A stretch of 64,000 bases of DNA from Sneathiella aquimaris (GCF_026409565.1 NZ_CP112881.1:2403501-2467500); one strand, 5' to 3'; positions 15,317 to 60,527 are shown, numbered from the stretch's first letter. The notes: generated by a model from the letters alone, not told the origin. Translations and numbers: made by a program.

Positions 15317-18300
15317 GTGACGACACTTATTATTACGGAAAAAACGTCACAGAAGAAAGATCTGGCGGCCGCAATTGGCAATGAGTACGGTCAAATACTC
15401 CCCGCTGAGGGGCATCTTTTAAGTCTGCAGGAACCTCTCAGTGTGAACAGCACTTGGGGGAAATGGTCTTTTGACCTGCTGAAACCTGATGATTTTTACC
15501 CAACCTGCCCGGCGCCCGATGCTTCCCCTTCGGCACGCGCGAAGCTAAAAGCGATTGAAGAGGCCCTGAAAAAAGCAACCCGGGTCATTCTGGCGACCGA
15601 CTGTGACCGCGAGGGACAGCTGATCGGCGAAGAACTCCTGCGTCATTACGAATTCAAGGGCCCTGTAGGACGCGCTATTTTCACGGCACAAGACGAGAAA
15701 ACCCTAAGGCAAGCCTTTGAAAATCTGGAACCCAACGAAAATTATCTCAATTTGGGTCAGGCGGCTCTTGCCCGTCAACAAGCCGACCAGGTTTACAATT
15801 TATCACTGACACGCGCCGCCACAGTAGCGCTGAAACAACCCGGTGAATATGGAGCGATCGGTATTGGTCGGGTCAAAACACCAACCATGGCGATTGTCTG
15901 TATTCGAGAACTGGAAATTCTGGATTTTAAACCCGCCGATTATTTCCACCTTGTCGCAACAGCCAACACAGCGGCAGGAAAACTGGACCTCAGATACGCA
16001 CCTAAAGAGAAAATTCTGGATCAGACAAAGGCAGAGGAACTTTGCCAACTGGCTGATGGCTTTGAAGCTCCGATAAAGGCCGTAATGAAGGTCAAGCGGA
16101 CCAAGCCGCCAAAATTATTGGATCTGCCCGAACTTCAAAAAATCTGCGCCCGCAAATGGGGGTGGTCTGCCACAAAAACGCTGGATGTTGCGCAAGAGCT
16201 CTATGACGGTGATGGCAAGAAAATTCAAACCTATCCGCGTGCAGAATCCAGATATCTTGCAGAAAACCAGATCGCCGACATTGATGAAATAGTCAAAGGC
16301 CTTAAAAGTCTGGAGCAGTATCAAAAACTGGATGTGGGAAAACCCGAAATTCGCAAAGGTAAAAGCGGGCATTTTTCCGATGCCGGTTTAAAAGGCGTAT
16401 CCCACCATGCGATTATTCCCAATAAAAACACCATGGATCAAATTGCCAGAATTTATCCACGCCTTTCAGATGATGAGAGGAAAATGTTTGATCTTGTTTC
16501 AAGTTCCTATCTGGCCATCCTGCTTCCTGATTACGTATATCAGTCCACAACCGTTTCCCTTTCTGTCCCTACCCCTGAAGGCGAAGAGCTTCTGTTCAAG
16601 GTAACAGGGAACATTCCCAAAGAGCTTGGCTGGCGTACCATATTCACAGATGAAATGGAAAAGAAAGAAGATCATGCAGGAGAACTGCCCCCTGTGCAAG
16701 ACGGTGATATTGTTCGTCTCTCCCCCGTTATCCTTGACACGAAGAAAACGAAAGCCCCTTCCCGTTTCAATGAAGGTTCGTTAATTGACGCCATGCAAAA
16801 TGCCTGGCGGTTCGTCTCTGATAAATCGCTTCAGGAACGCTTGAAAGAAGCAAAAGGCATAGGCACGCCTGCAACACGTGCGGCAATTATTCTAGGGCTC
16901 AAAAAGCAGAATTTCATCACCCAGAACGGCAAACATATTGTGCCGACACCGGCTGGCTTAGCATTATACAAAGCCCTTAAACAAGCCGCGCCAGAACTTG
17001 TTGACCCCGGCGTTACGGCCCTATGGGAAATGAAACTTGATGACATTCTCGAAGGAAAGCAAACCGCCCGGCAGGTTTGGGATGAAATCGGCGATGCAAC
17101 CTCTCGCCTGATTAGCGTTATCCGGGATAATGCGGCGCGCGTTCCTAAAATTATGACGGGCGTTGCCCCTCCGAAAGACAGGGCGACGTTTGGTAACGGC
17201 AAACCCACAGATAAAATGATCGCAACAGCGACCTCAATTGCCACCCGTAAAGGGATCAAAACCCCTAAGAAATTTGATACCAGTTTTCAGGTCTGTAAAG
17301 ATTTTCTGGATGAGCATCTAGGCGGCAACCCATTGATTGCAATTGAAAAACGATTGGGGAGCGGCTTAATTCGCGGCTTGGGTCCCGTCGCGGCAAAGGC
17401 GGTCGTCGCAGCCTTTGGGGTTGATGCGTTTTCCATTGTTGAAGACACGCCGGAAAGACTATCCGAAATTAAAGGGGTTGGCCCCAGGATTGTCGCCGCG
17501 GCCGTAGAAAGAAAACAGGCAAAAGAAATCGGTAAACAATTGGCAGATTACGGGGTCCCACGCCAATTCGGACTGCGGTTATCCCGCTGCTTCAAAGAAG
17601 AGGCGCTAACACTGGTCCGCGAAAAGCCATACGAAATCCTGAAAACAGTCAGTTGGTTTGGGTTCGATAATGCGGACAGAATTGCCTACGCAATCGGATT
17701 AAACCCTGACGATCCGGCGCGGCTGCAGGCGGCATTGCTTCAAATGCTCAACATTCCTCGCGAAAAGGATACACTGGCTGCCCCGTTGGCCAAACGTTTG
17801 AATGTCAGTCCGGTCAGTGTTGAAAACATGCTAAAAACAGCACTCTCCGAGAATTTGATTGTTGAAGAAGAACGAGACGGCATTCTGTATGTTGAGCGCA
17901 GAGACGCTGCCGAAACAAAAGAAAACCTGGGCACGCTTTTGAAAAGCCTGAACGGCCATACGCTACCATGGCAACCGTTTGATACAATCAAAGCTGTTCA
18001 ATGGGCACAGGAACAGACGGACACAGTGCTAGAACCGGACCATACCGAAATTCTGGCGTCTATCCTATCACGGAAAGCAACCGTTCTGTTGTCCAACAAA
18101 AACGACGCTTTATCATTTATTATCAACCCATTAGTTCACATTCTTAACGCAAAGAAAGTAACAACTAAAATTGTTACGGCGTTTCAATCCGTTGCCACTT
18201 CAGTGAAAACTGCTTTGGACGAAAAAGCTGAACCCGTTTTAAGAGCTCTGGGGTGGGATGAAGCTACGCAGGATTTTAAACATTCCGACAAAAAACCTCT

Positions 18301-19138
18301 CAAATGCCAATTTCTCATTCTCTTTTATTCTGATGATATGGATCCCGAGCATTTACGGGCCTTATTGACTGCTACCCCGAAAGAGTCTGCCATTCTCATC
18401 ATCAAAGAAGAAAGGAACACTTTCTTCGAAATGGCCGCCTACCCGCTGGAAAAGTGTTGCCATCACCTTCAATGGACAATACTGAAGGACCCTTCGAAAC
18501 CTGTCGACAACAACAGTCAAAAAGCACGGGCGCTGGCCTCTCTCTCCCAGACAGGGGAATGTGTTGAAGAATTTCCACCGTCCGCGGAGGCCGACTTTTT
18601 CATTTTATCAACACCGTCAGAAGAAAAAGCATCAGCAACGGCACTGGAACTTATTCACAATCGGTTGCCAGCAAAATTTGAAGTTGATTCAATTACAGAC
18701 ATCCAGCTCCTGTGCGATAAAGCGGCAGGACCCGCCGGTGTCAACGCGTTCAACAAACAGGCAATCCAGCTTCCTCAGAAAGAGAAAAATACGTCCTCTG
18801 TAAACCGCTTTGGCCATCTGTTTAAATCGAAAAGCAAGGTCATGCTCACACAGGACGCAATGGATAAAGGCCTCGGTAAAGGTGAAGTTGGCATCATTAA
18901 AAAAATTGATGCAGAAGCCCAGTTAGCCAAAATCAGTTTTTCAGGAAAAACGCTGGAGTTTGAATTTGATGAATTGGACATCGTCGTTCCTGCCTATGCA
19001 ATACTCGCAACGACTGGCACCGTTTCAGAAACAAAAATTATCGTCGTCATAAGTAAATCATCGACGAGATCAGCCCCACTGTATCGCGCCTTAAAAAATG
19101 CTACCGAGCGGGTTATCCTTGTGGAGTATCCTGCATAA
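15317..19138 (+). CDS. Type IA DNA topoisomerase fused to an inactive RecD2-like helicase module
   Basis: 1273 residues, GTG start with AAGGGG upstream. Residues 1-610 are a TopB-like type IA topoisomerase: TOPRIM Glu8 (ITEK), D95-C-D97-R-E99, HHAIIP, the GIGTPATRAAII loop, and the nucleophile Tyr306 in TYPRAESRY. All catalytic residues are present, so DNA strand passage is likely intact. From about 675 the protein follows RecD2: helix-hairpin-helix motifs (GLGPVAAK, KGVGPRIV), a winged-helix region, then a helicase fold. In the latter the Walker A position reads LSNKNDAL (925-932), Walker B reads LILFYSD (1000-1006), the VHKSQG motif reads ATTGTV (about 1230), and the arginine-finger motif YTALTRAK reads YRALKNAT. 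The ATPase is therefore dead while the fold and C-terminal SH3-like part remain. No zinc fingers. Possibly a targeting or single-strand-handling module. Confidence 0.85.
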   Translation: MTTLIITEKTSQKKDLAAAIGNEYGQILPAEGHLLSLQEPLSVNSTWGKWSFDLLKPDDFYPTCPAPDASPSARAKLKAIEEALKKATRVILATDCDREGQLIGEELLRHYEFKGPVGRAIFTAQDEKTLRQAFENLEPNENYLNLGQAALARQQADQVYNLSLTRAATVALKQPGEYGAIGIGRVKTPTMAIVCIRELEILDFKPADYFHLVATANTAAGKLDLRYAPKEKILDQTKAEELCQLADGFEAPIKAVMKVKRTKPPKLLDLPELQKICARKWGWSATKTLDVAQELYDGDGKKIQTYPRAESRYLAENQIADIDEIVKGLKSLEQYQKLDVGKPEIRKGKSGHFSDAGLKGVSHHAIIPNKNTMDQIARIYPRLSDDERKMFDLVSSSYLAILLPDYVYQSTTVSLSVPTPEGEELLFKVTGNIPKELGWRTIFTDEMEKKEDHAGELPPVQDGDIVRLSPVILDTKKTKAPSRFNEGSLIDAMQNAWRFVSDKSLQERLKEAKGIGTPATRAAIILGLKKQNFITQNGKHIVPTPAGLALYKALKQAAPELVDPGVTALWEMKLDDILEGKQTARQVWDEIGDATSRLISVIRDNAARVPKIMTGVAPPKDRATFGNGKPTDKMIATATSIATRKGIKTPKKFDTSFQVCKDFLDEHLGGNPLIAIEKRLGSGLIRGLGPVAAKAVVAAFGVDAFSIVEDTPERLSEIKGVGPRIVAAAVERKQAKEIGKQLADYGVPRQFGLRLSRCFKEEALTLVREKPYEILKTVSWFGFDNADRIAYAIGLNPDDPARLQAALLQMLNIPREKDTLAAPLAKRLNVSPVSVENMLKTALSENLIVEEERDGILYVERRDAAETKENLGTLLKSLNGHTLPWQPFDTIKAVQWAQEQTDTVLEPDHTEILASILSRKATVLLSNKNDALSFIINPLVHILNAKKVTTKIVTAFQSVATSVKTALDEKAEPVLRALGWDEATQDFKHSDKKPLKCQFLILFYSDDMDPEHLRALLTATPKESAILIIKEERNTFFEMAAYPLEKCCHHLQWTILKDPSKPVDNNSQKARALASLSQTGECVEEFPPSAEADFFILSTPSEEKASATALELIHNRLPAKFEVDSITDIQLLCDKAAGPAGVNAFNKQAIQLPQKEKNTSSVNRFGHLFKSKSKVMLTQDAMDKGLGKGEVGIIKKIDAEAQLAKISFSGKTLEFEFDELDIVVPAYAILATTGTVSETKIIVVISKSSTRSAPLYRALKNATERVILVEYPA

Positions 19139-21963: not shown

Positions 21964-23691
21964 ATGCTTCTTAAGGCGTTAGGCTTTCACAAAATGAAGA
22001 GTAACTGGAAACAGTTCTCAAAAAAAGTTCTCAAGACAGGGCCCGCAACTTTCGACGCACCGGGCAAACAGAACGATCCCGTCAAAACAGCAGGCGCCAA
22101 CCAACCGACAACCGAAGACCAGATGCTTGAGGATCAAATAAAGCATTTGATTGATGGGAATGAGTTTTTGGTCAATGGAAAAATCAGCCTGATTAATCTG
22201 GCTACCATTAAGGCAAAACTTGGCGACAAATGGGAAAAGTATTCCAGTTACATTCACACATTTGCAGAAAAGGTATTTCAACAACGCCTGACCCCTCAAG
22301 ATATCTATTACAGGGTTGGAGATGATGCTTATGTCTTCGTTTTTGATAGCCTTTCAGAAGAAGAAGCCATTATTAAATGCTCTTTGATAGCGAAGGAAAT
22401 TGGCGAACAGGTGATCGGTGATGAATGGTCCACCTCTCAATATGGGGCGACTGTTTCTGTTACCAGCTCTGAAGGCGAAACACTTCTTGAAGAAAAATCC
22501 ATGGCCGCGAGTATTGTGCAGAGCCTGGAAAATGCTGAAAAATTTAACCCGTCTGAAGTTCTTAAGAATATCAGTCCTGAATATCTGGACAATACGGCAT
22601 CCCGCATTTCAAAGACTTTTGAAGCAATAGAACAAGAAAAGAAATCTTCGAACACAGAAGGTGACGAAGGAATTGGCTACTTCTGTGACGCGATGAACGG
22701 AATCGGAAAAATAGAGAGCTGGATTTATGATGCCGAACAGGTTTCAGAAATGCAGAACAATTCTCCTAAATGGGAAGCTTTTGTTTATGACGGTTTGCAG
22801 ACTGAAGAGAAAAAAACAACGAGCGTGTCTGAGAAATTAGCCGAACTGATTGGCGAAACTGAAAAGTTATACAACGTTCTACAGGACGACTTATTGGTCT
22901 TGTTTGAGGACGAGGAAGAGATTGAAGAAGAAACGGACGAAGGCGAAGAAGACTATGATCCCGAGATGGTCTTTTCTTATTGGCCTGTATTGCAACCAAC
23001 GTCCAAAAGAGTAGCGGCTTACGCAGCATCCTCCAAATTTGTGCTCGAAAATTCACTCTGGAATATAGATGACCTGCCTGAAGACATCCATCCATCCACA
23101 ACGGCTGTTTTTGATCAGCTGGTGCTTAGACGTACGATCGTTGATTTAGTAAATTGCGCCCAAAAAGAAATCATCAATATGGTGATTATTCCGGTGAATT
23201 TTTCGACCTTGAATACGGCAAGTTATCGAAAGGCCTATCTGGAGATATGTGGAACAATTCCTAAAAGCATGCACAAGCTTATTGGCTGGCAAATCGTTAA
23301 TAGTGGCGTGCAAAACTGGCATTCTCAACTACTGACAGCTGTTTCAGCAGTTAAGAAATATGGTCGTATGGTCGGGTTGGAAGTCAGCTGCCAAAACCCG
23401 CAATTCACAGACTTAAAAGCCATCGGTGTCGATGTTGTCGGGTTCGATTGGAAAAACGCCAACCTATCACCGGACGCTTTGAGAAAAAATCTGGAAAATT
23501 TCAAGAAACGGGCGGACACAGAGGGACTTAGGGTTTTTCTTTTTGGTATACCGACCGAACAAATTTTCAAGACCGCCATCGAGATTGGTATTGAGTATAT
23601 GGCTGGGGAGTTCGTCGATGACAGCGTCGCAGAGCCTAAAGGTGTTTACAGTTACGATAAACATTCGAATATTCATTCCCTTTCCGCCTGA
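21964..23691 (+). CDS. Degenerate GGDEF/EAL-like protein
   Basis: 575 residues, cytoplasmic, no membrane segment. Residues 60-190 resemble a GGDEF fold, with YYRVGDDAYVFVFDS where active cyclases have R-x-GGDEF; the motif reads GDDAY (119-123), so cyclase activity is not expected. A middle region (about 300-335) is very acidic (DEEEIEEETDEGEEDYD). The last 160 residues resemble an EAL domain: LKAIGVDVVGFDW in place of the LGVDYIKLD strand, and VFLFGIPTEQIFKTAIEIGIEYMAGEFV in two pieces where active enzymes have IAEGVET and a GY-x-GKP loop. The metal-binding E and D residues are missing, so phosphodiesterase activity is also unlikely. It could be a c-di-GMP or protein-binding adaptor. Start context is weak; ATG 21994 is an alternative. 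Confidence 0.65.
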   Translation: MLLKALGFHKMKSNWKQFSKKVLKTGPATFDAPGKQNDPVKTAGANQPTTEDQMLEDQIKHLIDGNEFLVNGKISLINLATIKAKLGDKWEKYSSYIHTFAEKVFQQRLTPQDIYYRVGDDAYVFVFDSLSEEEAIIKCSLIAKEIGEQVIGDEWSTSQYGATVSVTSSEGETLLEEKSMAASIVQSLENAEKFNPSEVLKNISPEYLDNTASRISKTFEAIEQEKKSSNTEGDEGIGYFCDAMNGIGKIESWIYDAEQVSEMQNNSPKWEAFVYDGLQTEEKKTTSVSEKLAELIGETEKLYNVLQDDLLVLFEDEEEIEEETDEGEEDYDPEMVFSYWPVLQPTSKRVAAYAASSKFVLENSLWNIDDLPEDIHPSTTAVFDQLVLRRTIVDLVNCAQKEIINMVIIPVNFSTLNTASYRKAYLEICGTIPKSMHKLIGWQIVNSGVQNWHSQLLTAVSAVKKYGRMVGLEVSCQNPQFTDLKAIGVDVVGFDWKNANLSPDALRKNLENFKKRADTEGLRVFLFGIPTEQIFKTAIEIGIEYMAGEFVDDSVAEPKGVYSYDKHSNIHSLSA

Positions 23692-27173: not shown

Positions 27174-30100
27174 TTAGTAATCCCATTTCCAGAAAACGCC
27201 AACACTGCTATTGCTACTCTGATCAGTTTTACTTTCGACTTTTACATTCGGTGTGACTTCGATTTCGACTTTCGCGGAAGTGCTTCCAGCGGTGCCCCCC
27301 TGTGAAACGCCGACATAAATCTGATCAGTAATATATTTTCCAGCCGACACCTCTGCACTGCCCGTATCTTCGTTAATGCCAGCAGACAGAACATCAACAC
27401 CTAGCGCCTGACGGGCAAAATCTGTGATACCGCCAAACCCAGCCCCCCCAGAAACACTGGAAATCGCCTGCGCAAGTTGAACGGCCTCTAACGCAGACAG
27501 CTTAGCGGCAGATTTTCCGAATAAGACACGTGCCAGCACTTCGTCTTCAGGCAGATCATCGGGTGACGAAAATCGAATAATCGGATTATTGGCAGTCCCT
27601 TCAATGTGAACCACAGCGGTCACATTCTTCCCTTCATATTTGGCGGAGAGAGACAGTTCCGGATTTATGTCTTTATTGCCGAGCAAGCGGATTGATCCGT
27701 CTTGCAGTTTGAAATCCTTACCAGAAAAACTGAACTGACCGCGAACCGGACTTAGGGAACCTTCGATAATCGGCGCATCAGAGGTACCTTTCAGCGTAAA
27801 TTTTCCTGCCCATTCTGAATCAAGGCCCCGCCCTCTGATAAAAAGTCGCTGGGGTATATCAACAGCAACCCCCAAACGGACGGCAGGGCCAGCGGGCGGC
27901 TCGTCCTGCGGATTTTCCTGCGCCAGATCCTGCGGAAAATTGGTCAGTGTGACAGGCATGTCGACGACGTCTGCAGCCAGCGTCCCTGCGATGCTGACAT
28001 CGATATCGCGTGTCCGGACATCTCCTGTAACTGAAAGGTCATTGGGCCCTCCAAGCATCCTTAAATTTGCGTCCGTTGCAACTTTCAGGGCATCCTGGTA
28101 GATAAGTTGCATCTGTTCCAATGTCAGCAACATATCTACAGAAGGTTGTGTGTCTTCATCCAGAAAAATACGACCCGATAGCGACGCGCGCCCGTCTTCC
28201 CGGTCCGTTGCCTGTGCACGAACATCAAAGATAGAAGCGTCTTTCGTTATCATGGATAATTCCAGGTTTTTCAGGATCGTCCCATATTGTATTTCTTCAT
28301 ACCGACCACCTTCCAACTGTACCTGCCCGAAATATTTAGGTTTTGATACGGTTCCCTGAACACGACCATCCGCTGTTAGTATTCCTGACAACAGATGTTT
28401 ATCCAAGCCCGCCAGATCCCAGATTTTTCCGATGTCACTCTTTATTGCTGCCTGTATATCAATCGCCCCCTCTGCCGGCAGTTCGGCGCCCAATGGCTTT
28501 AAAGAAACACGGAGCGGAACGTTGCCTGACGCCTGAATGGCGGTTTCATCAAGCCCGGCAACAGTCCAGTCGAAATCGACAGCCCCATTCTTAATGGCGC
28601 CGTTCAAGTGACTGGAAAGGGCAGGTAAGTCAGGATAGTCTTCGGTGACAAGAACTGCCTTATTCAGGGTCAATGAAAAATTCCCGTTGGTTTGCTGTTC
28701 GGCAATCTCCACACTTGCCTCAGCGTCCAAAACCCCCTGAAAAGAGCCTTCAGGCATTAAAACATTCAACAAATCCAGCGGCAGCGCCTTTATGAGGAGT
28801 TTCGCCTTGGTCTGCTGATCATTTAAATTCCCTTGCGCCTGCAGCTCCCCATCTCCAATCGATAGGGACACTGGTGACAATGCCATAGAGCCCTGATTGT
28901 ATTCAGCCGTAACAGGGGATTTCATATCAACAGGCTTGTTCAGAAACTGCCCGGAAAAAGTCTCCAGAAAGAGTATTTTTTTGGTCTCTGCGGCTCTAAT
29001 ATGACCGATCGTGTTTATGTTATAGGTTGGCGTCAACGGACTGGTGAAAGAGGCTGAAAACGCGAGTTCTGTCAGTTGCCCCTCCGCCTTCATTGTCACG
29101 TCTGGCAATGCGACATTTCCCGCTGTCATCGTGTTCCCAGTCAAAGAAAGCAGGATTTTCGGGTCTGAAAAAGCACCGACGGCTTCCGCCTGTCCGTCTA
29201 ACGTTCCAACAGACAGTTTTTCTTGCGGGTAGGCTAAGTCACGCACATTCACAGAGACACTGGTTTTTTGATTTTCCAGTGAATTAGAAAGTTCCACCCG
29301 TCCGGAAAGACGACCTGATGCCTGCTGCCCTGCTATGGATGCAAGTCCCGCCAAATCGGGAAAATCGATTAACAATATCCCTGAATGAGGGTTGCTGTTT
29401 AACGAAATATCCAGCGCGCCCTTTATCGAATTTCCCTTTTGTTCAACAAGGATATCCAACAGGGAGACAATCGATGGATTCGGCGTTTTTATGGTGGCCG
29501 ATAGGTTTGTATCAATTTTGGGTCCTGATAAAGCACCGCTTACCTTTGCATTCAAAGAGCTTGTCGGGTTCTCTACCTGAAACTCGGCTTGCAACTGACC
29601 TAAGGGTAGCCCGTCAATGTGAAGAGAAGAGACTTGCATGGCCCCGTTAATATCCGGGTCCATCAACGGACCCGACAAGTCACTTTGCACGAACGCCGTT
29701 CCGCGGAGGGCAACACCCGCGATAGCATCCAGTTTTTCAAGTTGGGGCACCTCAACCTGAAAGGCTCCTGTGATCGTTTCAAAGGATCCAGAAAATTGAA
29801 CCCCGCCCTGAATACGCCCAATGGCCAGAGGGGCGTTTAAGTCTGAAACAATGATATTTTCGCTATCAACAGAAAATTGAGCCCCCATCTCAAGAGCGGT
29901 CCCAACAAGCCGTTGAATATCCGGATCCCCAACATTGAGCCCAGATACAGAGAGGTCAATCTTTCCGGCTAGCCCTTCTGCGAGGTTCGCACTTGATGCC
30001 GTTACATCTGCCTGAACGCGCCCTTCAATCGACGGGATAATCGTTTGCATCTGATCTAGCGTCACAGATGCTGTGGCCTTGGAGGGCCCGTTCCCCAAGG

Positions 30101-31550
30101 CAATGCTTCCGCCGCCAAACATCGTTAAATGAGAGGCCGCAGCAGAAAGTTCAAAAATATCGATTTGGTTTTGCTCACCAGAAAAGTGTCCTTTTGCCTC
30201 CGCCGTCAGAGAGGTGCCCAAAAGCTGCGCGGCCTGTGGGGGAAGATTGGTTATTCCAGTCGCAGTTACAAAAGTCTCGAAGGGCACAACCACCAAATTT
30301 TCGGGCTGGATTTCAGTTATCAGCCTGTTGGTGATAGTTTTTACTTGAAGAGAAGGCTGCCCCTCTCCTTGCGCGATGGCGAGACCGTCTGCAGCTGTAT
30401 TTGCCTTGATGGAGATCTTTTTCAAACCTCCGCTCAGGTGCATAATTGAAGAGGCCGCCTGTAAAGACGCATTTGACAGCAGGGCGTTCACCGCTGAAAT
30501 ATTCTTCACTGTACTGCTGACATCCAGCGCACCCTTTACTGCCGCCAGATCAATCTTACCCGTTAAAACGGTTTGCAGGTTTGGGTTCTCAATCGTCAGA
30601 GAATTCAGCGTCACATCCTGCTTATCAGCATCAAAAAGAAAAGAGCCAACAATGCTTATCCGTCGGTTATCGATCAAAGGAATGGACGTAGCGACACTTT
30701 CCTCCAAGTGAAGTCCACCTGATAGTTTAAGGCTCGTTTGGTTCAGGCCATCCATCTCCACCAATAGATCACTGGAAAACAGACCGTCAGCCTGCGCAAT
30801 CACCTGCCCCCGCCAACCCTCAATTGGTCCATCTCCGACGATCGATCCGGAAAGAGCTGGCAAGCCAGGAAGTTTTAGCAACCGACTGAAAAAGCCACCC
30901 TGTGCCCCGTTTAATTCTGCGGTAACCCCTAAATGATTTTTCGCTGGATCAAAAAAGACTTCACTATGAACACTGTCTTGTAGAGCATCCAAGGGAACGA
31001 TGGAAAACCGGCTGACCAACGTGTCATCCAGCCGAGAGTTTAAGGCCAATGAGACGCCCAGAATACTCTCTTGTCCCAAAACCGGCTCTTCAAGAGAAAG
31101 TTTATCTATAGAAAATTTCGACAAGGAAAGACGAACGGGCAGCTTTGGAAAGCCTGTTGTTCCCTCATCGCTTTGCGAAGAAGCCGGCAAGTCAGGCTGG
31201 CGTTGAACTGTAACGCTGTTAAAAGAAATTTCCGCGATCTGCAAACGACCTTGCAGAAGGTGCAACGGCGACCAGGAGATCGTCCCCCCCTCCAAACGCA
31301 TCCATCGGCCGACTGGATCATTTAACGTCAGGGACGCGATGCTGAATTGATCAAAAACGTTTCCCTGTAGGCTGCCTACACCAATTGACAGCCCCCCTTC
31401 CTGTTTTGCCGCCTCTTCAACTTGCGAAACAAGAAAATTTCTACCAGCCTGTGTTTGCAAAAACGTGTAGGCGCCAGCCATTGCCAGAACCATTACAGCA
31501 ACCAAAGTCAGCAAACTCATGCCAACTTTTCGAAAAAACGATCGCACCAT
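27174..31550 (-). CDS. tamB: Translocation and assembly module protein TamB
   Basis: 1458 residues with one N-terminal membrane anchor (VGMSLLTLVAVMVLAMAGAYTFLQ) and a very long repetitive beta-strand body, typical of AsmA/TamB-like bridge proteins with a hydrophobic groove. The C-terminal 350 residues carry the DUF490/TamB signature, including GSLSPVRGQFSFSGKDFKL, GTANNPIIRFSS, LPEDEVLARVLFG and the final aromatic-rich strand. It spans the periplasm and works with TamA in moving phospholipids or outer-membrane proteins. The start ATG lies two bases after the tamA stop, so they are coupled. Confidence 0.93.
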   Translation of the reverse strand: MVRSFFRKVGMSLLTLVAVMVLAMAGAYTFLQTQAGRNFLVSQVEEAAKQEGGLSIGVGSLQGNVFDQFSIASLTLNDPVGRWMRLEGGTISWSPLHLLQGRLQIAEISFNSVTVQRQPDLPASSQSDEGTTGFPKLPVRLSLSKFSIDKLSLEEPVLGQESILGVSLALNSRLDDTLVSRFSIVPLDALQDSVHSEVFFDPAKNHLGVTAELNGAQGGFFSRLLKLPGLPALSGSIVGDGPIEGWRGQVIAQADGLFSSDLLVEMDGLNQTSLKLSGGLHLEESVATSIPLIDNRRISIVGSFLFDADKQDVTLNSLTIENPNLQTVLTGKIDLAAVKGALDVSSTVKNISAVNALLSNASLQAASSIMHLSGGLKKISIKANTAADGLAIAQGEGQPSLQVKTITNRLITEIQPENLVVVPFETFVTATGITNLPPQAAQLLGTSLTAEAKGHFSGEQNQIDIFELSAAASHLTMFGGGSIALGNGPSKATASVTLDQMQTIIPSIEGRVQADVTASSANLAEGLAGKIDLSVSGLNVGDPDIQRLVGTALEMGAQFSVDSENIIVSDLNAPLAIGRIQGGVQFSGSFETITGAFQVEVPQLEKLDAIAGVALRGTAFVQSDLSGPLMDPDINGAMQVSSLHIDGLPLGQLQAEFQVENPTSSLNAKVSGALSGPKIDTNLSATIKTPNPSIVSLLDILVEQKGNSIKGALDISLNSNPHSGILLIDFPDLAGLASIAGQQASGRLSGRVELSNSLENQKTSVSVNVRDLAYPQEKLSVGTLDGQAEAVGAFSDPKILLSLTGNTMTAGNVALPDVTMKAEGQLTELAFSASFTSPLTPTYNINTIGHIRAAETKKILFLETFSGQFLNKPVDMKSPVTAEYNQGSMALSPVSLSIGDGELQAQGNLNDQQTKAKLLIKALPLDLLNVLMPEGSFQGVLDAEASVEIAEQQTNGNFSLTLNKAVLVTEDYPDLPALSSHLNGAIKNGAVDFDWTVAGLDETAIQASGNVPLRVSLKPLGAELPAEGAIDIQAAIKSDIGKIWDLAGLDKHLLSGILTADGRVQGTVSKPKYFGQVQLEGGRYEEIQYGTILKNLELSMITKDASIFDVRAQATDREDGRASLSGRIFLDEDTQPSVDMLLTLEQMQLIYQDALKVATDANLRMLGGPNDLSVTGDVRTRDIDVSIAGTLAADVVDMPVTLTNFPQDLAQENPQDEPPAGPAVRLGVAVDIPQRLFIRGRGLDSEWAGKFTLKGTSDAPIIEGSLSPVRGQFSFSGKDFKLQDGSIRLLGNKDINPELSLSAKYEGKNVTAVVHIEGTANNPIIRFSSPDDLPEDEVLARVLFGKSAAKLSALEAVQLAQAISSVSGGAGFGGITDFARQALGVDVLSAGINEDTGSAEVSAGKYITDQIYVGVSQGGTAGSTSAKVEIEVTPNVKVESKTDQSSNSSVGVFWKWDY

Positions 31551-31552
31551 TT

Positions 31553-33385
31553 CTAAAATGCCTGCCCGATGCTTATATAGAATTGAAACGCGTCATCTTT
31601 ATTGGCCCGGCGGTTCAGCGGAAGCGCTACATCCAACCTTAACGGTCCGAAAGGCGTATAATATCGGGCGCCTAATCCGGCGGCCCATCTGAACTCTTCA
31701 TCAAAATCGGGCATCATGCTTTTGTAGACATTGCCGCCTTCAATAAAAGGGACGATTCCGATTGTCTCCGTGATCCGAATGCGCGCTTCCAGCCCCACCT
31801 CAACGACCGATCGCCCCCCGATGGGATCATTGCTATCATCCAATGGTCCGACTGATTGCAGCTCATACCCCCGAATGGACCCCCCGCCGCCGGAATAAAA
31901 ACGTTTTACGGCAGGAACATCCGCCCGGCTACTTCCCATAATACTGCCAACGCGGGCCCTTGCGGCAAAGATAAGGCGCTTATCGGCCAAGGCGGAATAG
32001 TAACCAGACCCTTCGATATCTGTTGTCACAAAGTCCGAGGAAACATCGTTTAGCCCAAGATACGATGTCAGCGTTGTACTGAAGCGAAAACCTGTTGACG
32101 GATCCAGCAAATCATCGGTTGAATCGTAAGCTGCGGTAATCGGGACACCAAAATAAAAGAAATCGTCACTAACGCCGTTTTCCTCGATTTGAGAGAGTTC
32201 AAAAAAAGCGCCACCGCCAACGGTCCAGTTTTTTCCGTAGGTTCTATCAAGACCGACATAAACACGAGCAGCCTCTTCTGAATAAGCGTCGGTATCTTCT
32301 ATTCGTAAACTGGCTTCTGCTTTTAAATTCTGATGACGCCTGTAAACATTTGGTTTGACGAACGACGCAGATACCTCCTGTGTAATTTCAGAAAGCCTTA
32401 AATCCCCACGTAGCTTCTCCCCTTGCCCGAAAAAATTCCGGTTCTCCCAATAGGCAGAGACACCAGCACCATCACTTGTCGAATAGTCAGCACCAACGCC
32501 GATTGACCGATGTTTTCGTTCTTTGAACTCGAAAGTTACGGGTACAACCGCGTCATAAGTCACGGCTTTTGGAATAGAATACCGGACAGCTTCAAAAAGG
32601 CCTGTTTCCAGAAATATCTGTCGAACCCGTTTTAAGGTTTTTTCCTGATAAATTACATTTTCTTTCCATCCAGACAAACTCAACAGATATGCCTTGTTTA
32701 TTTGCTCCAATCCGGTCAGTTCCAATTTCCCAAAGTATACAAGCGGGCCTGACTTGATGGTCTGCACCACCTGCATTTGTCTGGTCGTATAATCAACAAC
32801 GGCATTCTGGCGCTCAAACCGTGCAAGGGGGTATCCTCTGTTTGCCAAAAGAGAAATCGCTTTTTTCTGTGCATCTACAATTGGTTGGGCTTCTGCTGGT
32901 GCGCCAATATCAATCCCGAGATCTTTTGGATCAAGAGGCCCCGGGCGAGACTGCAGAGCATCGAACTCAACCCGAAAAGCACCAATGGTATAGCGCGGCC
33001 CCGGGTCAATATTAAAAGTTACGAGTGAAGGATTTACTGAGCGATCAACTTCATGAGTAATGCGGGCAGAATAATACCCTTCAGAATTCATGACTTTTTT
33101 AAAGCCTTCCAGATCTGTATCGATCCGCCGCCGAAGCGCCGCAAGACTAACCGGTGGCTTGTCTTTTAATTGATACATTTGCGAAGATAGCGCTAGCAAT
33201 TCAGAAAGTGGCTCATCCTCAGGCAGATTAATGACCGTATCATATGCCCACCTGTCCGCCTCTTCCTGAGCGTAAGCAGCCGAACCGCTCGCCACAAGAA
33301 AAGAAAATATAGCAGCCAATAAACCGAAAAACAGAGCGGTTGCCTTGACCTCCTTTGAGGGGGATACATAAATGCAGAAGGTCAC
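31553..33385 (-). CDS. tamA: Outer-membrane assembly protein TamA (BamA/Omp85 family)
   Basis: 610 residues. A signal peptide (ALFFGLLAAIFSFLVASGSAAYAQ) is followed by POTRA domains (for example GYYSARITHEVDRS and GPLVYFGKLELTGL) and a C-terminal 16-strand barrel with RFYSGGGGSIRGYELQSVGP, the Omp85 RGY motif that stabilises the barrel. The last residue is F, as expected for an outer-membrane protein. The GTG start at 33385 is the only one that keeps the complete signal peptide; a GGAGGT occurs inside the frame but without a usable start after it. Forms an operon with tamB. Confidence 0.92.
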   Translation of the reverse strand: MTFCIYVSPSKEVKATALFFGLLAAIFSFLVASGSAAYAQEEADRWAYDTVINLPEDEPLSELLALSSQMYQLKDKPPVSLAALRRRIDTDLEGFKKVMNSEGYYSARITHEVDRSVNPSLVTFNIDPGPRYTIGAFRVEFDALQSRPGPLDPKDLGIDIGAPAEAQPIVDAQKKAISLLANRGYPLARFERQNAVVDYTTRQMQVVQTIKSGPLVYFGKLELTGLEQINKAYLLSLSGWKENVIYQEKTLKRVRQIFLETGLFEAVRYSIPKAVTYDAVVPVTFEFKERKHRSIGVGADYSTSDGAGVSAYWENRNFFGQGEKLRGDLRLSEITQEVSASFVKPNVYRRHQNLKAEASLRIEDTDAYSEEAARVYVGLDRTYGKNWTVGGGAFFELSQIEENGVSDDFFYFGVPITAAYDSTDDLLDPSTGFRFSTTLTSYLGLNDVSSDFVTTDIEGSGYYSALADKRLIFAARARVGSIMGSSRADVPAVKRFYSGGGGSIRGYELQSVGPLDDSNDPIGGRSVVEVGLEARIRITETIGIVPFIEGGNVYKSMMPDFDEEFRWAAGLGARYYTPFGPLRLDVALPLNRRANKDDAFQFYISIGQAF

Positions 33386-49066: not shown

Positions 49067-49098
49067 GTTTCGATGGTCATTCATGACTGTATCGAAGC
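49067..49098 (+). promoter_or_regulatory. Candidate antiterminator hairpin of the nrtA leader
   Basis: TTCGAT (49069-49074) pairs with ATCGAA (49091-49096), with an inner GTCA-TTCA-TGAC stem and an outer G-C pair. The 3' arm uses bases 49095-49098, which are also part of the terminator stem, so the two cannot form together. The switch is inferred from the overlap. Confidence 0.6.
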
Positions 49099-49117
49099 TG
49101 CATTGCAGCTTTTTTTT
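49095..49117 (+). terminator. Attenuator terminator in the nrtA leader
   Basis: AAGCTG-CATTG-CAGCTT followed by eight T (49110-49117), 40 bases before the nrtA start. An intrinsic terminator upstream of the first gene has to be overcome for expression. Also, GCAGCTT of its 3' arm is complementary to AAGCTGC inside the second ANTAR hairpin (49054-49060), giving another possible exclusive pairing. Confidence 0.85.
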
Positions 49118-49156
49118 ATGAAAATTTTTGAACCAAGTAACGACAGGAGGCTAAAA

Positions 49157-50557
49157 ATGGGTGCTTTAAAATATGCAAGACGTACCTTTCTAGCGATGAG
49201 TACGGCCCTTCTAGCCACAGCGGCCACGGTTTCAGTTTCTCACGCTGAAATGCTGGATGTGGAGAAGGATGAGTTAAAATTCGGGTTTATCAAACTAACC
49301 GATATGGCCCCACTCGCCATTGCTTATGAAAAAGGCTATTTCGAAGAAGAAGGCCTTTACGTCACTCTTGAACCTCAAGCCAACTGGAAAGTCCTGCTCG
49401 ACCGGGTGATCACCGGTGAACTGGATGGTGCGCATATGCTGGCTGGACAGCCGCTGGCCGCGACAATTGGTTTTGGTACCAAAGCCCATATCGTTACGCC
49501 CTTTTCCATGGATCTGAACGGGAACGGAATTACCGTTTCGAACGAAATCTGGGAAATGATGAGAAAACATATTCCGTCTGGTCCTGATGGTAAACCTGTC
49601 CATCCCATCAAGGCCGATGCTCTGAAGCCAGTCGTTGATCAGTTCAAAGCGGAAGGCAAGCCTTTCAAAATGGGTATGGTTTTTCCTGTCTCCACCCATA
49701 ATTATGAACTTCGTTACTGGCTGGCTTCAGGCGGTATTCACCCCGGATTTTACAGCGCGGATGATGTCTCTGGTCAAATCCAGGCGGACGCCCTGTTGTC
49801 AGTAACACCACCGCCGCAGATGCCTGCAACACTCGAAGCCCAGACCATTCACGGTTACTGTGTGGGGGAGCCGTGGAACCAGCAAGCCGTATTTAAAGGG
49901 ATCGGCGTTCCTGTAATTACAGATTTCGAAATATGGAAGAACAATCCTGAAAAAGTCTTTGGCTTAACCAAAGAGTTCACAGAAGCCAATCCGCAAACAA
50001 CTCTGGCCCTGACAAAAGCCTTGATCCGGGCAGCCAAATGGCTTGATGAAAACAACAATGCAAATCGAATGGAAGCCGTCGAAATCCTGTCGCGATCTGA
50101 ATATGTAGGGGCCGACAAAGAAGTGATTGCCAATTCCATGACCGGCACCTTCGAATATGAAAAAGGGGATAAACGTGACGTTCCTGATTTCAACGTTTTC
50201 TATCGGTATTATGCAACCTACCCCTACTATTCCGATGCTGTGTGGTATCTCACTCAAATGCGCCGTTGGGGCCAGATCAACGAGCATAAAAATGACGCTT
50301 GGTATGACGAGGTGGCCAAATCTGTCTACCTGCCAAACGTCTATCTTCAAGCTGCCAGGCTGTTGGTTGAAGAAGGCCACGCCGATAAAGCCGATTTTCC
50401 ATGGGACTCTGATGGTTATCGCGCGCCTACCCCGGCGGCCGATATCATCGATGGCATCCCCTATGACGGTAAAAAGCCCAACGCTTACATCAACTCTCAA
50501 AAAATTGGCTTGAAATCCAAACAGATGGTCAAGGGCGACTCTCTGGTTGAAGGGTAA
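49157..50557 (+). CDS. nrtA: Nitrate ABC transporter, substrate-binding protein
   Basis: 466 residues from the ATG with AGGAGG six bases upstream. The frame extends back to 49073, but that part is the attenuator leader and not coding. The N-terminus [24 protein letters not shown] is a Tat-like signal (RR) with AxA-like cleavage. The mature protein is NrtA/CmpA-type: [57 protein letters not shown]. It binds nitrate or nitrite in the periplasm and delivers it to NrtB. First gene of the operon nrtA-nrtB-nrtCD-nirB-nirD-nasA. Confidence 0.93.
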
Positions 50558-50565
50558 CCCGACAC

Positions 50566-50589
50566 AAGTGGCCGCAACGGCGGCCACTT
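50566..50589 (+). promoter_or_regulatory. Intercistronic hairpin between nrtA and nrtB
   Basis: Perfect ten-base stem AAGTGGCCGC / GCGGCCACTT with loop AACG, 9 bases after the nrtA stop, without a T run. Such hairpins protect the upstream message from 3' exonucleases, giving more binding protein than permease. The structure is certain; the role is inferred. Confidence 0.7.
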
Positions 50590-50618
50590 CCCCGACGATG
50601 AATTAAGGACCCCCAAAG

Positions 50619-51698
50619 ATGACAAATACTTCTGAAGTGATGACAACCGGTGACGCCGGAAAGAAAAGGGAAAAGGTTTTTTCCATAATCAACCGTGCGT
50701 CAGGCTGGTTGAACGCACTCGGGTTTTCCTGGCTGGTTCCCATCCTGAAGATGCTGGCAGGCGATAACTTTCAGGAACAGCTGACTGAGCTGAGAAAAGT
50801 TCTTCTATATCCGATGCTGGGTATCATTGTCTTTCTGGTGGCCTGGACCGCGCTTGCCCCGCGCGTTCAAACGTCTCTTGGGGCAATTCCGGGCCCCACC
50901 CACGTTTGGGAACAGACCGGCAATCTTTGGGCGGACCATATCCGGGAAAGAGAAAAAGCTGATGCGTTTTATGACCGTCAGGACAAACGGAACGAAAAAC
51001 TGATTGCCGCCGGCAAGGCAGACAAAGTCAAACACCGCACCTACACAGGTAAACCGACCTATTTTGACCAGATCGTCACCTCCTTGGCGACTGTGGGGCT
51101 AGGCTTTCTGATTGCTACAATTGTGGCGGTACCATTGGGCATTGCATCGGGACTGTCAAAGGCAGTCAATGGCGCGGTGAACCCGCTTATCCAGATTTTC
51201 AAGCCCGTCTCTCCTCTTGCCTGGTTGCCTATCGTCACCATGGTTGTATCCGCCCTGTATGTTGAACCTTGGGGATGGATGCCAAAATCCATGATGATTT
51301 CGGCGGTCACTGTCACGCTTTGCTCCTTATGGCCAACCCTTATCAATACAGCACTGGGCGTTGCCTCTATCGACAAAGATCTGATGAATGTGAGCCGAGT
51401 CCTGCAATTACCAACGGCCAAAACAATCACAAAACTTGTTCTCCCCTCTTCACTGCCGCTTATTTTTACCGGCTTGCGCCTGTCGCTTGGGGTCGGATGG
51501 ATGGTGTTGATTGCTGCCGAAATGCTGGCTCAAAATCCTGGCCTTGGAAAATTTGTCTGGGATGAATTCCAGAACGGCTCTTCACAATCTCTGGCCAAGA
51601 TAATCGTTGCAGTCCTGACCATTGGTATCATTGGCTTTGTATTGGATCGCATCATGTATGCGTTGCAAACAGCCTTCACTTTTTCTGCAAATCGATAG
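50619..51698 (+). CDS. nrtB: Nitrate ABC transporter, permease
   Basis: 359 residues. The N-terminal 130 residues include one membrane helix and a long hydrophilic stretch rich in K, D and E; the rest is the ABC permease fold with five helices, with the EAA-type loop LPTAKTITKLVLPSSLPLIFTGLRLS that contacts the ATPase. NrtB/NasE-type permeases take nitrate from NrtA. AAGGA precedes the ATG. It ends nine bases before the nrtCD start. Confidence 0.92.
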   Translation: MTNTSEVMTTGDAGKKREKVFSIINRASGWLNALGFSWLVPILKMLAGDNFQEQLTELRKVLLYPMLGIIVFLVAWTALAPRVQTSLGAIPGPTHVWEQTGNLWADHIREREKADAFYDRQDKRNEKLIAAGKADKVKHRTYTGKPTYFDQIVTSLATVGLGFLIATIVAVPLGIASGLSKAVNGAVNPLIQIFKPVSPLAWLPIVTMVVSALYVEPWGWMPKSMMISAVTVTLCSLWPTLINTALGVASIDKDLMNVSRVLQLPTAKTITKLVLPSSLPLIFTGLRLSLGVGWMVLIAAEMLAQNPGLGKFVWDEFQNGSSQSLAKIIVAVLTIGIIGFVLDRIMYALQTAFTFSANR

Positions 51699-51707
51699 GT
51701 GGAGCGC

Positions 51708-53471
51708 ATGTCATTTTTAGAAATCACAGGATTGTCAAAGCATTATGGAGACGGTGCAAACCGAACCAACGTGCTGAAAGACATCAATCTAAAAGTCGAG
51801 GACGGCGAGTTTATTGCGATCCTCGGCTTCTCAGGCTCTGGCAAAACAACGTTGATTTCGGCCTTAGCAGGCTTGATCGAACCAGACACAGGCGGCGTGA
51901 TCTTTCGCGGGAAACAAATCACAGGCCCCGGCCCGGAGAGAGGATTGGTCTTTCAATCATATTCCCTGATGCCGTGGCTATCAGTGCGTGGAAACATAAC
52001 GCTTGCGGTTGATGCGGTTCACACAACCAAATCCCGCAAAGAAAAGACAGAAATAACACAACATTATATCGACATGGTGGGTCTCTCCCATGCGGCCGAC
52101 AGACGACCAGCAGAGCTTTCTGGTGGCATGCGTCAACGGGTTGCTGTTGCCCGGGCACTTGCCATGCAGCCCGAAGTCCTTCTTATGGATGAGCCACTAT
52201 CCGCACTGGATGCGCTGACCCGCGCCAAGCTACAGGACGAGTTCGCAGATATTTCTCAAAAAGAAAAGAAAACCATCATCCTCATTACAAATGACGTGGA
52301 TGAAGCGATCCTTCTCGCCGATCGGGTGATCGCGCTAACCCCTGCACCAAATGCCACTTTAGGGCGGGAGTTTCGCATTGATCTGCCACGACCAAGGAAC
52401 CGTGCTGAAATCAATAGCGACGCAGAGTTTATCCGCCTGAGAGGTGAGATTACACAGTATCTGATGGATATAGGTGCAGAACGGGGGGTTGAGGCAGAAC
52501 GCTGTATCGCGCTTCCGGAAATCGTTCCGATCACGCAGCGGGACAAAATTCCCCCAGCCTACCAAAAAGCTGCTGAGTCAGTGCGCAACAAACGGTATCT
52601 GGACTTGAGTCAGATTAAAAAGATTTACCCCACCCCACAGGGGCCGCTAACGGTAGTCGACGGGTTCGACTTGAAAATGAACAAGGGCGAATTTGTTACG
52701 CTGATTGGTCATTCAGGATGCGGAAAATCAACGGTCCTGTCGATGATTTCTGGTCTCAATAGCATCTCTGAAGGCGGGATTATTCTGGACGGTACCCATA
52801 TTGAAGGGGCTGGTCCAGACAGAGCCGTTGTTTTTCAAGCCCCATCCCTGCTGCCGTGGCTCACGGCACACGAGAATGTCTGCCTCGGTGTGGATAAAGT
52901 ATATCCGGACGCTGACAGGTCTGAACGCAAGGATGTGGTTGAATATTACCTTTCAAAAGTCGGCCTTGCCGATTCCATGCATAAATTGGCAGGCGATTTA
53001 TCCAACGGAATGAAACAACGGGTGGGCATCGCCCGGGCATTTGCCCTGTCTCCCAAGCTTCTTCTATTGGATGAACCTTTTGGCATGTTGGACAGCCTAA
53101 CCCGTTGGGAATTGCAGGATGTTCTGATGGATGTCTGGAAACGGACGCAGGTGACGGCTGTTTGCGTCACCCATGATGTGGATGAAGCCATTCTGCTGGC
53201 CGACCGGGTTGTGATGATGTCAAACGGGCCCCATGCGAAAATCGGCAATGTGATGGATGTAGATCTTCCCCGGCCAAGATCTCGCAAAGCCCTGCTGGAA
53301 CACCCGGACTACTACGCCTATCGCGAGGAGCTTCTGGAATTCCTGGATGCCTATGAAGGCGGTGCAAATCCAAGTACCGAGCAACTGTCCAGAATTACCG
53401 CAAAACGCAAAGAAAGAATTGCCCGGCAGGCAGGGCAAGAAAAACCGAAAGCAGTGTTATCAGCGGGGTGA
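51708..53471 (+). CDS. nrtCD: Nitrate ABC transporter, two ATPase domains fused in one chain
   Basis: 587 residues; ATG 51708 with GGTGGAG upstream. First ABC domain (residues 1-250): Walker A GFSGSGKTT, signature LSGGMRQR, Walker B LLMDEPLSALD. Second ABC domain (about 300-540): Walker A GHSGCGKST, a modified signature LSNGMKQR, Walker B LLLDEPFGMLD. Each is followed by a TxDVDEA H-loop region; the first has TNDVDEA in place of THDVDEA, so its switch histidine is replaced by N and that site may hydrolyse ATP poorly. Cyanobacteria encode NrtC and NrtD separately, with NrtC carrying an NrtA-like tail; here no such tail exists. Single-chain double ATPases occur in some proteobacterial nitrate systems. 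Confidence 0.88.
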   Translation: MSFLEITGLSKHYGDGANRTNVLKDINLKVEDGEFIAILGFSGSGKTTLISALAGLIEPDTGGVIFRGKQITGPGPERGLVFQSYSLMPWLSVRGNITLAVDAVHTTKSRKEKTEITQHYIDMVGLSHAADRRPAELSGGMRQRVAVARALAMQPEVLLMDEPLSALDALTRAKLQDEFADISQKEKKTIILITNDVDEAILLADRVIALTPAPNATLGREFRIDLPRPRNRAEINSDAEFIRLRGEITQYLMDIGAERGVEAERCIALPEIVPITQRDKIPPAYQKAAESVRNKRYLDLSQIKKIYPTPQGPLTVVDGFDLKMNKGEFVTLIGHSGCGKSTVLSMISGLNSISEGGIILDGTHIEGAGPDRAVVFQAPSLLPWLTAHENVCLGVDKVYPDADRSERKDVVEYYLSKVGLADSMHKLAGDLSNGMKQRVGIARAFALSPKLLLLDEPFGMLDSLTRWELQDVLMDVWKRTQVTAVCVTHDVDEAILLADRVVMMSNGPHAKIGNVMDVDLPRPRSRKALLEHPDYYAYREELLEFLDAYEGGANPSTEQLSRITAKRKERIARQAGQEKPKAVLSAG

Positions 53472-53476
53472 GTAAA

Positions 53477-55924: not shown

Positions 55925-56265
55925 CGTCAGAAACCATGAATTGGACAGAGGTCGGTCAACTTTCGGAAATACCGGTTCAGGGGGCCCGTTGCATAAAATT
56001 GGGAGAGACGACGATTGCCCTTTTTCGGACAATTACAAATGACGTCTTTGCCATCGAAGACAAGTGCCCCCACAAAAAAGGGCCCCTCAGTCAGGGGATT
56101 GTGCACGACAATTGCGTCACATGCCCGTTGCATAATTGGGTAATTTCCCTGGAAACCGGTACCGCGCAAGGGGCCGATGAAGGCTCAACATTAACTTTCT
56201 CAACACGTATTGAGAACGGGATCGTTTCAATTGCCCTTAGTGCCCCTAAAGAGGTCGCCGCGTGA
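55921..56265 (+). CDS. nirD: Nitrite reductase, small subunit with complete Rieske ligands
   Basis: 114 residues of the NirD/Rieske fold. The ligand motifs C-P-H (EDKCPHKKGPL) and C-P-L-H (VTCPLHNW) are both present, so it can hold a [2Fe-2S] cluster; several well-studied NirD proteins lack these residues. It is expected to pair with NirB. The start overlaps nirB and the stop overlaps nasA (GTGA), giving strict coupling. Confidence 0.93.
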   Translation: MTSETMNWTEVGQLSEIPVQGARCIKLGETTIALFRTITNDVFAIEDKCPHKKGPLSQGIVHDNCVTCPLHNWVISLETGTAQGADEGSTLTFSTRIENGIVSIALSAPKEVAA

Positions 56266-60225: not shown

Positions 60226-60527
60226 AAGTAAAAAATGGTTGATAGACGCATACACGATGCGAGTAAAGCCGGTTTAACAAAAGCAGACACACAAACATCG
60301 ATACGATGGTCTGAATTTCAATCGAATCACAGTGCAAGCCCAATCGCCGTTAAACAGCAAATTCAAGCGCCCATCCTCACTCCCTCATCGCTGATAGCCC
60401 TATGTAGAGGGCCATATATAGCGTGGGGACAAATAAATGCCCAGATCTCCCACGTATAGTTTGACAAACAAACAGATGCAAACAATGACCTATGGTGAAT
60501 GTCACGTTTTCTGGAAAGAATAGTCAT
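60226..60527. other. Divergent promoter region between roxA-like and OsmC-YcaO genes
   Basis: 302 bp that should hold both promoters. CGTGGG at 60422 is matched by CCCACG at 60449, an inverted repeat with 21 bases between the arms that could be an operator. No coding frame or RNA gene is seen. Confidence 0.45.

Follow-up and report, generated by a model that had tools for sequence, protein, structure and literature searches.

A topoisomerase III-like protein fused to a RecD2-derived module without an intact helicase motor

One gene in the analysed window of Sneathiella aquimaris (the whole stretch of 64,000 nucleotides) encodes a TopB-like type IA topoisomerase that continues, in the same reading frame, into a RecD2-derived module. 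The module is predicted to retain the RecD2 fold, and its helicase motifs are degraded in this protein and in the relatives that we found. The parts of the gene are given in Table 1. The host assembly is one contig of 3.94 Mb.

Table 1. Features of the fusion gene in window coordinates; residue numbers are those of the encoded protein.
Feature	Position	Strand	Basis
Complete fusion gene (TopB with a RecD2 pseudo-helicase); 1273 aa, starting with GTG	15317..19138	+	Open reading frame; fused frames of relatives about 1275-1340 aa
Type IA topoisomerase (TopB-like) part, residues 1-640; Toprim 3-122, Topoisom_bac 143-587	15317..17236	+	Profile matches, PDB relatives
Catalytic tyrosine Y306 with the topoisomerase III-type proline (P307) after it	16232..16234	+	Alignment; proline rule (PMC10969213)
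End of the TopB part, GKPTDKM...CKDFLDEH, residues 628-668; also the end of plain sister TopBs	17198..17320	+	Alignment
Tandem helix-hairpin-helix of RecD2, residues 673-812 (HHH_5-like, then PF14490)	17333..17752	+	Profile, conservation (highest of the module)
Winged-helix-like segment, residues 816-905, fast evolving	17762..18031	+	Alignment to RecD2
RecA-like domain 1, residues 906-1060	18032..18496	+	AAA_19 (weak), structure comparison, profile-profile alignment
Lost Walker A, LSNKNDAL, residues 925-932	18089..18112	+	Motif alignment
Lost Walker B, FYSD replacing DExx, residues 1003-1006	18323..18334	+	Motif alignment
RecA-like domain 2 with SH3-like insert, residues 1061-1273 (SH3_13 match 1154-1208, 18776-18940)	18497..19135	+	Profile, structure comparison
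Lost motif V, TTGTV replacing HKSQG, residues 1232-1236	19010..19024	+	Motif alignment
Lost motif VI, YRALKNAT, residues 1256-1263	19082..19105	+	Motif alignment

The topoisomerase part and the junction

Profile searches score residues 1-645 as topoisomerase III and the remainder as RecD2. The first part matches NCBIfam PRK07726 (446 bits, residues 3-645) and Pfam Topoisom_bac (306 bits), and its nearest solved structures in a PDB search are those of E. coli topoisomerase III. The original prediction of a full TopB-like enzyme with Glu8, D95-x-D97-x-E99 and Tyr306 was correct: E8, D95/D97/E99 and Y306-P307-R308 are present in the window protein and conserved in the members compared. A proline after the catalytic tyrosine marks topoisomerase III rather than topoisomerase I (PMC10969213). 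The Toprim acidic set, the catalytic tyrosine and the proline, which define membership in topoisomerase III, are thus all found. The NCBIfam cut-offs of the TopB subfamilies are not reached (446 of 597 bits for PRK07726, 406 of 516 for TIGR01056), and we therefore call the protein TopB-like. We infer from the sequence that the topoisomerase of the fusion would be active.

The nearest plain TopBs are plasmid-borne proteins of Azospirillum (WP_109333929) and Methylosinus (WP_161915238), with 50-56% identity to one fusion member. These alphaproteobacterial plasmid enzymes resemble the fusion throughout TopB, with the catalytic set and the last domain present, but they stop at FLDQHAK and FLDEHAR and have no RecD2 part. 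At the same point the fusion reads FLDEHLGGNPLIAIEKRLGSGLIRGLGP, and within this junction IEKYLGSGLIKGIGP is the start of the RecD2 helix-hairpin-helix (HHH) part. Because the plain enzymes stop where the fusion continues and the HHH part starts there, the protein is a complete TopB joined to a RecD2 without its first ~75-90 residues. An ordinary TopB C-terminal tail is ruled out, since the plain sister proteins end at the equivalent of residue 668.

RecD2 homology and fold of the module

The module matches TIGR01448 with 196.7 bits in two stretches (model positions 74-441 and 501-660), HHH_RecD2 with 66.7 bits (cut-off 27) and SH3_13 with 25.5 bits (below its cut-off of 41). No member of the family, the window protein included, reaches the TIGR01448 cut-off of 500 bits. 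Profile-profile alignment (hhalign) of six fusion modules with eight intact RecD2s gave a probability of 100 and an E value of 5e-119 over 602 columns. This E value rules out chance similarity or an over-reading of weak motifs.

The whole RecD2 architecture had been predicted. It is present in the RecD2 order from the HHH through the winged helix and RecA1 to RecA2 with SH3, but the first ~75-90 residues are absent, as the match starts at profile position 74 (TIGR01448) or 90 (hhalign). The N-terminal region of RecD2 has an OB-like fold in AlphaFold 3 models (PMC12143592), and this OB-like part (model positions 1-73) is missing from the window protein. The fusion thus shares with RecD2 (an SF1B 5'-3' DNA helicase; D. 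radiodurans structures 3e1s, 3gp8 and 3gpl) a tandem HHH, a winged helix, two RecA-like domains and an SH3-like insert, in the same order and with the same fold. It differs from RecD2 in the degraded state of all helicase motifs, the missing OB-like N-terminus, the attached TopB and the low TIGR01448 score.

An AlphaFold2 model of residues 655-1273, built from an alignment with 48 RecD2 homologs from viral contigs, has a mean pLDDT of 87.6; a control model built from six fusion members only has 77.3. The top PDB match of both is D. radiodurans RecD2 (Foldseek E 4e-27 with the RecD2 rows, 1e-26 for the fusion-only model). VIA comparison with 3e1s gave Z 25.9 and rmsd 3.8 for 466 aligned residues with the RecD2 rows, and Z 32.0 and rmsd 4.3 for 465 in the fusion-only model. 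A fold imposed by the RecD2 rows is ruled out by the same top matches of the control. Structure-search rows beyond RecD2, RecD, Dda and TraI were generic SF1 matches and were left out. As had been proposed for the region after residue 670, the models predict that the RecD2 fold is retained there.

Decay of the helicase motor

We aligned the 13 fusion members with seven stand-alone RecD2s and surveyed the helicase motifs. In the window protein, Walker A reads LSNKNDAL, Walker B LILFYSDD, motif V LATTGTV and motif VI YRALKNAT. The alignment bears out the loss of these four motifs, and it shows motifs Ia, III and IV degraded too. None of the 13 members has the Walker B glutamate. HKSQG of motif V is lost just as widely, the glutamine alone surviving in one g214 member (G487). 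Twelve of the 13 lack the arginine of motif VI; the one that has it (G019) also retains GDADQ of motif III, yet it has neither Walker A nor Walker B.

The decay is graded. The P-loop is partly retained in the genus g214, where it varies (GVPGTGKED in G280, GIANTGKLQ, and a formal GxxxxGKT, GLHETGKT, in G487). Its lysine is replaced by arginine in G234 (GGPGTGRDT), and Walker A is unrecognisable in the four Sneathiella members. The search of homologs for intact Walker motifs, suggested with the original prediction, found single motifs in some members and a complete helicase set in none of the 13, which makes helicase activity very unlikely in any of them.

Distribution, origin and genomic context

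The 13 members fall in three orders: four are from Sneathiella, one is from G234 and eight are from g214. Of 25 Sneathiella genomes, 4 carry the fusion, among them Sneathiella sp. NORP203 and NORP273. In the order of G234, it occurs in 1 genome out of 43. Eight of the nine g214 genomes have it; the remaining assembly is 77% complete. In the G017 assembly, the beginning and the end of the gene are found on separate contigs. Two g214 frames (L086 and L087, from G484 and G483) reach 1480-1504 aa; the C-terminal part of their module contains long inserts of low complexity.

No fusion was found elsewhere in a 398-genome sample of the phylum, and a scan of genome contigs with a single query sequence gave no match. 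About 1,000 prokaryote genomes contained no fusion with an intact helicase. Phage records gave RecD2-like matches across most of the module, mostly unannotated. Viral contigs held two fused copies, both of the g214 type, one of them identical to G280. Among 72,556 plasmid records, the sole hit with more than 80% query coverage was two separate genes on a Geobacillus plasmid. On this plasmid (Geobacillus subterraneus pGspE55-1; L074, 5719-11363), lepB separates the closely spaced, same-strand genes of a RecD-like helicase and a type IA topoisomerase. This pair is a separate link between a topoisomerase and a RecD-like helicase.

In the tree, the fusion modules form one clade with support of 100/100, which fits a single fusion event; with the long branches it is no proof. 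Judged from these sequences, topB was probably joined to recD2 once. The carriers in Sneathiella lie within one of two subclades of the TopA tree and need three gains or losses, so the gene has often been lost or moved. Its patchy occurrence there means that it is dispensable in this genus.

A duplicate of the host RecD2 is ruled out, as a stand-alone RecD2 frame occurs in only one of the 13 carriers. In that carrier, the RecD2-like frame encodes 739 aa beside the fusion (G280:C13:6452-8452). Three short stand-alone RecD2 fragments occur in G489. No stand-alone RecD2 was found in the Sneathiella genome of the window, which also encodes TopA and RecQ.

No conserved neighbourhood of the fusion gene was found among the carriers compared. 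A DEAD-box helicase gene adjoins it in the window and is 0.8 kb off in G234, in a different arrangement. Elsewhere in the window, a 575-aa protein (21964-23691, + strand) has EAL as its sole Pfam match, below threshold (19.5 bits, cut-off 31.3), and looks like a degenerate c-di-GMP phosphodiesterase domain. Adjoining TamB-like and Omp85/POTRA proteins (27174-33385, - strand) form a TamA-TamB pair. A gene run at 49073-58919 (+ strand) matches an NMT1-like binding protein, an ABC permease and ATPase, a nitrite/sulphite reductase and a molybdopterin oxidoreductase, and appears to resemble a nitrate assimilation set. A 735-aa protein (60492-62699, + strand) has an OsmC-like domain followed by YcaO and YcaO_C.

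Selection on the module

For two g214 pairs with unsaturated synonymous sites (Nei-Gojobori), dN/dS is 0.19 and 0.29 for the module versus 0.05 for TopB; the g214 module is under purifying selection. For the window copy, dS is saturated and the open frame is the sole evidence of selection. The window module has 601 codons with 75 nonsense sites; 40-52 stops would be expected without constraint at the observed divergence, and none is present. All 13 frames are free of stops and open to the same end.

Conservation in the fusions is lowest in the segments of motifs III-IV and V-VI, which rank among the best conserved of RecD2. It persists at the HHH start, in residues 985-1010, at NRLP (1115-1118) and in the SH3 region.

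Proposed function of the module

We propose that a topB gene was joined end to end with a recD2 that already lacked its first ~75-90 codons. The helicase motor would have decayed in all descendants found, with the reading frame and the RecD2 fold retained. HHH is a DNA-binding fold; here, the tandem HHH would hold DNA, and the RecA/SH3 shell would be a passive cradle or scaffold. The module may thereby help TopB to load at forks, gaps or other joint DNA.

Overall, the module looks like a motor protein preserved because of its shape and the contacts it makes. On balance, we consider it probable that the module is an ATP-independent DNA-gripping tail of the topoisomerase. This reading is supported by the RecD2 homology (602 columns) and the fold obtained with and without RecD2 rows, by the degraded motor motifs in 13 of 13 members, by the dN/dS of the module and the absence of stops, and by the shift of conservation to the HHH start, residues 985-1010, NRLP and SH3. 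Against it stand the degraded motif Ia, the unchanged charge, the longest branch of the window copy and the patchy presence in Sneathiella. Motif Ia is a contact to ssDNA in SF1 helicases. We found no gain of positive charge in the module as a sign of DNA binding, its net charge being unchanged; with motif Ia degraded as well, the ssDNA groove may not be used. We hold a DNA grip to be the most likely role because of the analogy with TraI of the F plasmid. Its RecD2-like SF1B domain no longer acts as a helicase but still binds ssDNA, and it has come to serve as a recruitment surface too (PMC3912908, PMC5422253). RecD2 itself shows a preference for forks and ss-ds junctions (PMC12143592), and from homology and analogy the module would grip DNA with a substrate preference. 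More tentatively, the passive RecD2-derived clamp could make this topoisomerase III family structure-specific (fork, gap or D-loop), a captured helicase having lost its motor and become a substrate reader. If true, the family would parallel the TopIII-RecQ pairing without needing ATP.

That the module is instead a protein-docking platform, with DNA contact secondary, is rather unlikely: its best conserved part is the HHH, which binds DNA in other proteins, and any partner would be a putative one. In such a platform, the RecD2 shell would keep its partner surfaces (SsbA and RecA in Bacillus) and bring TopB there. RecD2 is tied to forks via SsbA and interacts with RecA (PMC12143592), and in TraI, too, the vestigial helicase has turned into a surface for recruitment (PMC3912908). 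The degraded motif Ia and the unchanged charge likewise speak against a pure ssDNA groove.

We regard as improbable that the helicase half is a relic being lost, with no role beyond not harming TopB. The module does evolve 3.5 to 6 times faster than TopB by dN/dS (g214 pairs), and within Sneathiella the RecA1 parts are 24-38% identical versus ~80% for the TopB parts. The window copy has the longest branch in the module tree, and its module may be weakly constrained. But dN/dS is well under 1 in g214, all 13 frames reach the same end although truncation would cost nothing, the fold is retained, and 8 of 9 g214 genomes keep the fusion.

A nucleotide-bound clamp in g214, in which a residual P-loop would bind ATP without hydrolysis and set the DNA grip, is very hard to credit: the partly retained P-loop, formally intact in G487, and the 4-8 fold rise of RecD2 DNA binding with ATPgammaS (PMC12143592) favour it, but the P-loop varies even inside g214, every member lacks the Walker B glutamate, and the idea is inapplicable to the window protein. 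On this reading, the Sneathiella members would have lost nucleotide binding too.

Relation to known systems

Reverse gyrase is the known fusion of a type IA topoisomerase with a helicase. Like the fusion described here, it has both in one chain, but its helicase is an N-terminal, ATP-driven SF2 enzyme, whereas ours is of the SF1B type, C-terminal and without a motor. No N-terminal SF2 helicase with ATPase motifs is found in the fusion, and the proposal of a topoisomerase-helicase fusion distinct from reverse gyrase stands.

The PADLOC model PDLC02865 (named DpdF) reads TopB (~50-725) followed by RecQ (750-1082). The helicase follows TopB as in the fusion, but it is an SF2 RecQ instead of a RecD2; this architecture was read from matches to the model. 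The match of the window protein spans the TopB part only, as for a plain TopB, with no RecQ-type helicase behind it, and the module itself matches RecD models. Given its TopB and RecQ halves, any TopB or RecQ matches 'DpdF', a source of false defence calls.

The F-plasmid TraI relaxase is, like the fusion, a tyrosine trans-esterase with a motor-less RecD2-like SF1B domain in the same chain (PMC3912908, PMC5422253). It differs in being a relaxase rather than a topoisomerase and in its 2B-like insert and additional, active helicase domain, and the fusion is unrelated to it by descent.

The family libraries searched held no single model for TopB with a motor-less RecD2-derived module. The original statement that no description was known holds for TopB with a dead RecD2 module, for which we found none in the open literature (PMC), but not for a helicase C-terminal to TopB, which has a precedent in PDLC02865. 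Topoisomerase-helicase fusions (reverse gyrase, TopB-RecQ) and a vestigial helicase in a trans-esterase (TraI) are known already; TopB with a motor-less RecD2 module appears to be new to the models and papers searched.

The fusion is another route, beside reverse gyrase and TopB-RecQ, by which a type IA topoisomerase absorbed a helicase, and the only such case found whose helicase appears dead in every member. Within the family, successive stages of motor decay accompany a TopB that hardly varies. With them it can be tested which parts of a helicase serve a topoisomerase without unwinding, and whether DNA structures are recognised by the HHH and SH3 of RecD2 in the absence of ATP. The fusion is carried by a few alphaproteobacteria, and it suggests that they have put a former motor protein to new use as a handle for gripping or docking.
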